This document shows, piece by piece, positions 63,442 through 64,000 of a DNA stretch of 64,000 nt; position 1 is the stretch's first letter; every line of letters starts with the position of its first letter. The translations under genes and the position numbers were made by a program. Below the pieces are notes generated by a model. It searched no databases, was not told where the DNA came from, and saw only the letters and a program-made list of their open reading frames with translations. The stretch is from Terriglobus sp. TAA 43 (lineage in GTDB: Bacteria > Acidobacteriota > Terriglobia > Terriglobales > Acidobacteriaceae), in assembly GCF_000800015.1 (NCBI RefSeq), contig NZ_JUGR01000005.1, forward strand, positions 1-64,000, read 5' to 3'.

Positions 63442-63760
63442 GACGAAGGCTCCGTATTAAATCGGTTTGTAGGTATGGATCAGAGAGTTTGGTCGTGAGA
63501 CGCGCCCGTTCTGTTCGGGCTGCACAGACGACTGTGTGGTGCCTGCGTTAGCGGCAACAACAACACAGTCTGGAAGCAATGTGCATAAGGAAAAAATAAC
63601 TACCTGCTCGCTGTGAGTCAAGCAGGTGTTTATTGAAAGAAGTTTTGGTTCTTACATCATCGTTTCGTTGAGCTCGTCTTTTCTTTCAGTTACGATCCGA
63701 ATCGAAACCTGAATAATGGCCAAGCTTGCCTCTCCAATGCTCTTGCGGCAAATTGTGGGC
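63442..63760. other. divergent intergenic with a 7-bp inverted repeat
   Basis: Upstream of the TlpA-like gene. ACCTGCT (63602-63608) and AGCAGGT (63621-63627) pair exactly across 12 bases and could be an operator. No gene or RNA seen otherwise. Confidence 0.4.
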
Positions 63761-63799
63761 TTGACATCAGATGTGCATGTGTTAGTTTGACTCACATGC
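63761..63799 (+). promoter_or_regulatory. promoter and overlapping palindrome of the polycysteine leader
   Basis: TTGACA (63761-63766) and TAGTTT (63783-63788) are 16 bases apart, so transcription would begin at about 63795, at or next to the ATG of the leader. GCATGTG (63775-63781) and CACATGC (63793-63799) form a perfect 7-bp inverted repeat over the -10 region and start, a likely operator. Confidence 0.5.
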
Positions 63800-63834
63800 G
63801 TACTCTCTCGCAGCTTTGTTGTTGCTCCCGATAG
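63796..63834 (+). CDS. polycysteine leader peptide
   Basis: Twelve codons, MRTLSQLCCCSR, then TAG. Three consecutive Cys codons (TGT TGT TGC) near the end are very unlikely by chance and are the mark of cysteine-responsive leader ORFs described in mycobacteria. The ATG coincides with the predicted transcription start, so it may be read as a leaderless mRNA. The distance to the next start is 142 bases, filled with hairpins. When Cys-tRNA is scarce the ribosome would stall on the Cys codons and change the fold downstream. The controlled gene begins at 63977 and leaves the window, so its nature is not visible; a sulfur-uptake or cysteine-synthesis gene is expected. Confidence 0.6.
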   Translation: MRTLSQLCCCSR

Positions 63835-63848
63835 GTTCTTGCCTATAG

Positions 63849-63950
63849 GTAGAGCGCCGTGCGCCTACGAGTTCGCTTCCACTCATTACAAATGAATGCC
63901 ACCTGTTCCGCGTTTAGAGCGGCGGCAGGTCTTCAAGCGATTCATCGCTT
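63849..63950 (+). promoter_or_regulatory. hairpin series between leader peptide and downstream gene
   Basis: Three stems can form. GTAG-A-GCGC (63849-63857) pairs with GCGCCTAC (63861-63868) with one bulge. ACCTG (63901-63905) with CCGC (63908-63911) pair with GCGG (63919-63922) and CAGGT (63926-63930). AAGCGA (63935-63940) pairs with TCGCTT (63945-63950) around a TTCA loop. They lie where an attenuator would be. Confidence 0.5.
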
Positions 63951-63976
63951 TGGCATTCCAGTACGCAGGTGATTTC

Positions 63977-64000
63977 ATGTCATCGACTCAGCGATTTCTC
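63977..64000 (+). CDS. start of a gene cut by the window edge
   Basis: ATG with AGGT upstream, reading MSSTQRFL before the sequence ends. Too short to identify. Its place behind a polycysteine leader suggests sulfur or cysteine metabolism, for instance a sulfate-binding protein or cysteine synthase. Confidence 0.45.

Follow-up and report, generated by a model that had tools for sequence, protein, structure and literature searches.

A candidate leaderless cysteine-codon attenuator in Terriglobus sp. TAA 43 and a family of similar leaders in the Acidobacteriaceae

The 12-codon ORF MRTLSQLCCCSR, near the end of a 64,000-nt stretch of the Terriglobus sp. TAA 43 genome (contig NZ_JUGR01000005.1, positions 1–64,000, referred to here as the window), probably acts as the cysteine sensor of a leader controlling a CHRD-cytochrome-DsbD-like operon. 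Stalling at its Cys codons would switch the gene, and a minus-strand twin would control a redoxin gene; a rough probability for this reading is 0.8. The leader has the sequence-level features of a polycysteine leaderless short-ORF attenuator and is proposed as a member of that class. Taken together with its relatives, it appears to be a cysteine attenuator of known kind, in a new phylum and with variant features. The relevant elements are as follows.

63761–63788, plus strand: promoter of the first leader, with -35 TTGACA (63761–63766), -10 TAGTTT (63783–63788) and a 16-nt spacer
63775–63781 and 63793–63799, plus strand: 7-bp palindrome GCATGTG-N11-CACATGC, overlapping the promoter and start codon
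63796–63834, plus strand: putative leaderless 12-codon short ORF MRTLSQLCCCSR, with Cys codons TGT TGT TGC at 63817–63825
63831–63868, plus strand: two hairpins directly past the Cys tract in the minimum-energy fold, AUAGG..CCUAU and GUAG-GCGC..GCGCCUAC
63966–64000, plus strand: ribosome-site-like CAGGTG (63966–63971) and ATG (63977) of a CHRD-domain gene (sequence and Pfam)
63586–63548, minus strand: second putative leaderless short ORF MHIASRLCCCCR, divergent from the first, with -35 TTGACT at 63621–63616
63441–62128, minus strand: 437-aa redoxin gene (CPNCHDE) behind MHIASRLCCCCR (Pfam AhpC-TSA, 2.9e-12; Redoxin, 2e-8)

A preliminary description of this region had noted a -35/-10 pair with a start site predicted at the ATG of the short ORF, three adjacent Cys codons, and an ATG with a ribosome site 142 bases on. 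All of these can be read directly, with TTGACA at 63761, TAGTTT at 63783, the ATG at 63796, the three Cys codons as listed, and CAGGTG ahead of the ATG at 63977, which lies 142 bases from the MRTLSQLCCCSR stop. The A of the leader ATG is 35 bases past the first T of TTGACA, so that the transcript is predicted to start at the start codon itself. The promoter is absent from a consensus-scan list because its -10 hexamer agrees with TATAAT at only three of six positions. The palindrome, read earlier as a possible second layer of control by a repressor, is present, and the two closest relatives also have an inverted repeat at this promoter, shifted in register, but it is not a family feature: 7-bp inverted repeats are found in five of 80 leaders, against 1.6 expected from shuffles, and three of those five are the window locus and its counterparts. 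A role as operator of the whole leader family is thus not supported.

On the minus strand, MHIASRLCCCCR starts 35 bases past its TTGACT, and this promoter (TTGACT-17-TATTTT) was listed by the consensus scan. The MHIASRLCCCCR leader is proposed to control the 437-aa redoxin gene. Both window leaders are kept with small changes in two close relatives, as MRTLSQLCCCSR / MRTLSQLCCCFR on the plus strand and MHIASRLCCCCR / MHTASRLCCCCR on the minus strand. Back-to-back leader pairs also recur in loci L081, L082, L088, L091, L094, L106, and L108; those of L081, L082, L088, L094, and L108 precede divergent genes, one encoding a DUF6152 protein and the other a member of an "SGYW" family without a Pfam match. 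A third TTGAC-type leader in the window genome, VTIPVQTCCCRRCS (L189, contig C1, position 1357592), precedes another redoxin gene.

The first gene behind MRTLSQLCCCSR encodes a 164-aa CHRD-domain protein (ATG at 63977 to contig position 64471; Pfam PF07452, E = 9.7e-15). It is followed on the same strand by genes for a second CHRD protein, a small cytochrome (CytoC_RC), a DsbD_N-like protein, a 475-aa protein, and a redoxin (Pfam); CxxCH and CPNCH proteins are encoded among them. The 475-aa protein, with a CTQCH motif (locus L002, 4062–5489, plus strand), has no Pfam match. An apparent homolog in L062 is preceded by a short ORF of its own, MTRSSSLFCCSQ.., in which two Cys codons are adjacent. 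Past the operon are a sulfatase gene and an unmatched gene on the opposite strand, then a TonB-type receptor gene. A sulfur gene had been looked for just downstream of the leader; what is found there is the CHRD gene, in a CHRD-cytochrome/DsbD-like operon that is not a known sulfur operon. This counts against a sulfur reading of the window locus, as does the position of the nearby sulfatase on the other strand.

Leaders before the CHRD operon in relatives are MRTLSQLCCCSR, MRTLSQLCCCFR, MMRRTNRRCCCSR, MMRRSDRRCCCSR, MMRRPDQRCCCSR, and MTHRLYPHLRCCCSR. Their constant part is the Cys run with Ser/Phe-Arg-stop alone, while the N-terminal residues vary; in more distant relatives CCCSR is kept and the N-termini are unrelated. 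The Cys codons are thus conserved above the rest of the ORF, as would be expected from the preliminary description.

Sequence models of the leaders were built from nine (R1), 16 (R2), and 37 (R3) sequences, with TTGAC invariant in the 37 aligned leaders but also a requirement for collecting them. Model searches gave matches in 13 of 19 genomes of the genus (E ≤ 0.5), 21 of 39 relatives (E ≤ 0.1), and 57 of 399 genomes of the class (E ≤ 0.05), the last an upper figure because about 20 chance matches are expected at this threshold over 399 genomes. Across the phylum, 23 of 396 genomes matched at E ≤ 0.005, 21 of them in the same family; of the two outside it, L164 has a leader on reading and L162 does not. 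Weak matches outside the family at L057, L069, and L162 were set aside because reading them revealed no Cys codons. Among named genomes, a pattern scan yielded five records, including Terriglobus albidus DSM 26559 and two uncultured Terriglobus. Altogether 87 distinct leaders were gathered, nearly all from Acidobacteriaceae (Terriglobus and sister genera). Another genome has a leader with seven consecutive Cys codons, MSTLIRLLCCCCCCCSPSRRCD (L126, contig C24, 57929–58006), before a 1-Cys peroxiredoxin gene. An Rfam comparison of nine leader loci (27,553 bases) returned no described RNA family other than a tRNA and one match far below its gathering score. A search of an open-access collection with few subscription papers turned up no description of such leaders in Acidobacteria.

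The scanner looked for TTGAC with a start codon 30–42 nt beyond it that opens an ORF of no more than 45 codons containing a Cys run. Among the 40 loci retrieved for model matches, 32 had a scanner leader and eight did not (L078, L080, L089, L095, L107, L109, L110, and L111); 18 of 20 further loci gave one (all but L181 and L183), as did eight of another 12 under a slightly looser rule. With the start codon allowed 34–39 nt past TTGAC, all loci together gave 83 distinct leaders. Three scanner matches, one from L002 and two from L093, were dropped as likely accidents, leaving 80 of the 83, and seven more leaders brought the set to 87.

Control scans covered 788,801 bases in 41 loci, namely the 40 picked for a model match and the window locus. 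The scanner made 51 matches, including cases in which a single leader was matched at two starts; it made one with the spacing changed to 60–72 nt and none with the hexamer reversed; the 51 are not a genome rate because the 40 loci were selected for a model match, a selection that the controls share. When Cys was replaced in the rule by each of 11 other residues, there was no clear excess over the corresponding controls (for example, Ser 10 vs. 8 and 12, Arg 15 vs. 10 and 18). These spacing and residue controls argue against a chance origin of the leaders.

Codon and spacing counts for the 83 leaders, which are partly circular because the models were trained on these leaders, are narrowly distributed: the distance from TTGAC to the start codon is 35 in 42 leaders, 36 in 31 (73 of 83 for the two together), and 37–39 in 10, and TGT is used at 82 of 83 first and 78 of 83 second Cys positions. 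The start codon is ATG in 74 and GTG in nine, and in 46 leaders the run of Cys begins at codon 8. In 430 long ORFs nearby, TGC accounts for 1439 of 1852 Cys codons and TGT for 413. Eight leaders first found by the scanner and not by a model have 29 TGT and eight TGC codons.

First genes behind the 87 leaders were assigned by BLAST to seeds from the leader loci. Redoxin genes are the most numerous (28), followed by TonB receptor (15), CHRD (9), the "SGYW" family without a Pfam match (8), DUF6152 (6), peroxiredoxin, cysteine dioxygenase, and nitrite/sulfite reductase (three each), and sulfatase (2) genes; FGE-sulfatase, rhodanese, CysH, CysD, and PQQ dehydrogenase genes occur once each, and five leaders have none. 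Counting the three nitrite/sulfite reductases, 12 of the 87 leaders precede a plainly sulfur-related gene, and the other 75 precede redoxin, TonB, CHRD, peroxiredoxin, and other or unmatched genes. The total of 87 is itself low, because the cysD leaders of the window genome and several relatives use TTGAAT, which is beyond the TTGAC scanner.

In these other family members, Pfam matches of representative genes suggest a direct link to sulfur. L167, which belongs to a different family of the phylum, has PAPS_reduct, siroheme synthase, and NIR_SIR behind one leader, and in L186, from the same order, PAPS_reduct precedes GTP_EFTU, the two being taken as CysD and CysN. CDO_I with Rhodanese is found behind the leaders of L174, L184, and L195, Sulfatase in L171 and L092, FGE-sulfatase in L087, and Rhodanese in L136. 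Two Terriglobus loci, L198 and L199, have NIR_SIR, accompanied by siroheme synthase in L198, and a 1-Cys peroxiredoxin follows the leaders of L168, L169, and L194. The gene behind the L191 leader, considered as rhodanese-like, was dropped for lack of a Pfam match. Sulfatase genes lie within 10 kb of seven of 24 leader loci (12 genomes; 0.69 expected, P about 3e-6), a figure to be read with the genomes having been chosen for leaders, some of the loci being orthologous, and one such case having been seen beforehand. The 24 are the leader loci known at that stage; two model matches without a scanner leader were excluded and later leaders were not added.

A comparison that did not start from the leaders used cysD, taken as the best-scoring PF01507 gene in each of the 17 of 19 genus genomes that have one. 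A Cys-rich short ORF is present upstream in 13 of 17 cysD loci, three of the 17 being shortened by contig ends, against three of 22 hisD loci, where the control region may include coding DNA of the preceding gene. The three hisD passes have scattered Cys and no run; four of the cysD loci have no such ORF. In the window genome, MRACCQYRNCCPACSVAVCCRVR with a TTGAAT box precedes cysD, followed by cysN, cysH, and a TauE gene (L187/L188, contig C1 near 1156.7–1160 kb, minus strand); other Cys-rich short ORFs before cysD in the genus include MRRVFTDRCCCLL and MHLRTERACCCTCCR. The main inference of the preliminary description, that a leaderless poly-Cys short ORF may serve as a cysteine-responsive leader outside the mycobacteria, thus draws support from the conserved Cys codons, from the sulfur genes behind other family members, and from the Cys-rich short ORF before cysD of the window genome.

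The first 89 RNA bases of the window leader are predicted to fold at -31.6 kcal/mol, compared with -22.4 ± 3.1 for shuffles (z = -2.98), and the AUAGG..CCUAU hairpin fold is shared with both close relatives. For the 80 leaders, the first 100 nt have a mean z of -1.51 against dinucleotide shuffles and the next 100 nt a mean of -0.78; in many, a hairpin starts right after the Cys tract. Three groups were folded separately. In the CCCSR leaders (nine of 12 folded, the window leader and its two orthologs being left out because of their different fold), GCUCCC pairs with GG-UY-GAGC with a two-base bulge and no compensatory changes. The seven CCCSSQACPAELS leaders have the same two-base bulge, with compensatory changes in four of 14 pairs. 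In the redoxin leaders (16 of 17 folded, L050 left out), GCCGC pairs with GC-U-GGC, again with no compensatory changes, so that covariation is nil in two of the three hairpin groups.

How such hairpins might act on the gene was considered in terms of both translation and termination. In a purely thermodynamic model with automatically picked gene starts, release of the ribosome site by stalling was not detected on average in the 49 leaders for which a gene start could be assigned (gain of 0.35 vs. 0.07 kcal/mol for shuffles, p = 0.51), and the cost of opening that site with no stalled ribosome was 7.95 kcal/mol, vs. 8.05 for shuffles (p = 0.37). The change in ribosome-site accessibility on stalling was +2.2 kcal/mol for the window leader, and -0.8 and -0.6 for its two orthologs. 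No terminator-like site was seen on the plus strand within about 300 bases either side of the start of the window leader. U-runs occur in 14 of the 80 leaders and 48 of 622 control regions, which makes them commoner than in the control (p = 0.01) yet a minority, and an intrinsic terminator was rejected as a general leader feature, with none at the window leader. In the 100 bases past the leader stop, C and G stand at 32.0 and 22.5; the corresponding values for 622 control upstream regions are 29.4 and 27.4, a difference with p = 3e-12. C-rich, G-poor RNA of this kind would suit Rho.

The ORF, promoter spacing, conserved Cys run, hairpin, and association with sulfur genes are all read at the sequence level, and the mechanism proposed from them is as follows. 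The transcript would begin at or next to the ATG, and a ribosome would start on its 5' end without a Shine-Dalgarno site, reaching a cluster of three or four Cys codons around codon 8. If charged tRNA-Cys were scarce, it would probably stall there, covering the base of the adjoining hairpin; with plentiful cysteine it would reach the stop and leave, and the hairpin would re-form. By analogy with amino-acid attenuators, the stalled state would be the one in which the gene is on, and the hairpin could act on either translation of the gene or Rho-dependent termination.

The polycysteine leaderless short ORFs of mycobacteria were reportedly worked out by Canestrari et al. in 2020. In mycobacteria, RNA structure reportedly masks the downstream ribosome site except when a ribosome is stalled, a release that is not seen on average in the folding of the acidobacterial leaders. 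A leaderless start, putative in the acidobacterial leaders, the run of Cys codons, sulfur or cysteine operons downstream, here behind members other than the window leader, and the proposed placing of several operons on one signal are common to both. The acidobacterial leaders differ in their phylum, in a Cys tract adjoining a recurrent hairpin, in head-to-head pairs, and in a gene set that includes TonB receptors, sulfatases, CHRD proteins, cytochromes, and redoxins. Classical trp-type amino-acid attenuators likewise sense through a run of codons in a 5'-terminal short ORF; unlike them, the leaders considered here have a putative leaderless start, no terminator-like site in the window example, and U-runs in just the minority already described. 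The mycobacterial ORFs are summarized in PMC9031893, and PMC4633059 offers transcript and ribosome data supporting earlier Cys-run leader candidates in mycobacteria. Cys-run leader peptides had been predicted in 2005 for the cys operons of Mycobacterium and Propionibacterium acnes and for cbs in Bifidobacterium longum (PMC1262725). That paper suggests Rho for the actinobacterial cys leaders and reports no conserved terminator-like hairpins; the acidobacterial leaders are similar in having a short ORF with Cys codons near its stop, no clear intrinsic terminator, and a suggested role for Rho, but differ in the hairpins that recur beside the Cys tract. The leader peptides of Streptomyces leuA and leuS, as described in PMC8079986, are also leaderless, with 12–15 codons, a run of regulatory codons, and the TTGACn -35 motif of leaderless genes, but respond to leucine and belong to Actinobacteria. 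Leaderless genes are predicted to make up 13.3% on average in three Acidobacteria genomes (PMC3160421).

Other readings of the leaders differ in what is sensed or in which direction. Were stalling at low cysteine to turn the gene off rather than on, cysteine used by the CHRD-cytochrome-redoxin operon would be spared, as the CxxCH and CPNCH proteins encoded there might suggest; the same architecture is found, however, before cysD and cysH, which would be needed when cysteine is short, and this opposite output seems unlikely. Copper-responsive, cysteine-containing upstream ORFs provide a precedent for sensing by a nascent peptide, in which the CCC run itself, and not its decoding, would detect metal or redox state and stall or release the ribosome. 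The many redoxins, peroxiredoxins, and cytochromes among the first genes could fit such a sensor, but in most leaders the Cys residues come at position 8 of a short peptide, still within the exit tunnel, and the tract also occurs as CC-x-C, as C-x-CC, and as seven successive Cys. Since, in addition, cysD, cysH, and nitrite/sulfite reductase genes bear the same type of leader and the strong preference for TGT points to decoding, a peptide sensor is considered quite improbable.

A simpler explanation is that a promoter happens to lie before an accidental Cys-rich frame. This could be true of any single 12-codon frame, and the -10 box of the window leader is weak, but the spacing and residue controls, the conservation in relatives, and the 13 of 17 cysD loci leave it with almost no weight.

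If the cysteine-attenuator reading is right, the leaders would make up a set of separately controlled operons on one signal, with functions in sulfate activation, sulfite reduction, cysteine oxidation, sulfatases, outer-membrane receptors, and envelope redox proteins. A broader proposal, given about even odds here, is that Acidobacteriota have a cysteine-sensing network without a protein regulator, in which many operons, ranging from sulfate activation to sulfatases, TonB receptors, and an uncharacterized CHRD-cytochrome-redoxin envelope module, each carry a leaderless poly-Cys ORF overlapping a hairpin, often back-to-back. Unlike in mycobacteria, the hairpin would set the output together with Rho acting on the C-rich RNA past the stop, and the attached genes of unknown role would represent new sulfur-limitation functions. 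The cysteine-codon leader known from mycobacteria and their relatives is apparently also used at many messages of soil acidobacteria, those for sulfur uptake included. As such, it may be an unusually specific tag for the genes that a soil acidobacterium ties to its sulfur supply, among them receptors, redoxins, and CHRD proteins of unknown role.
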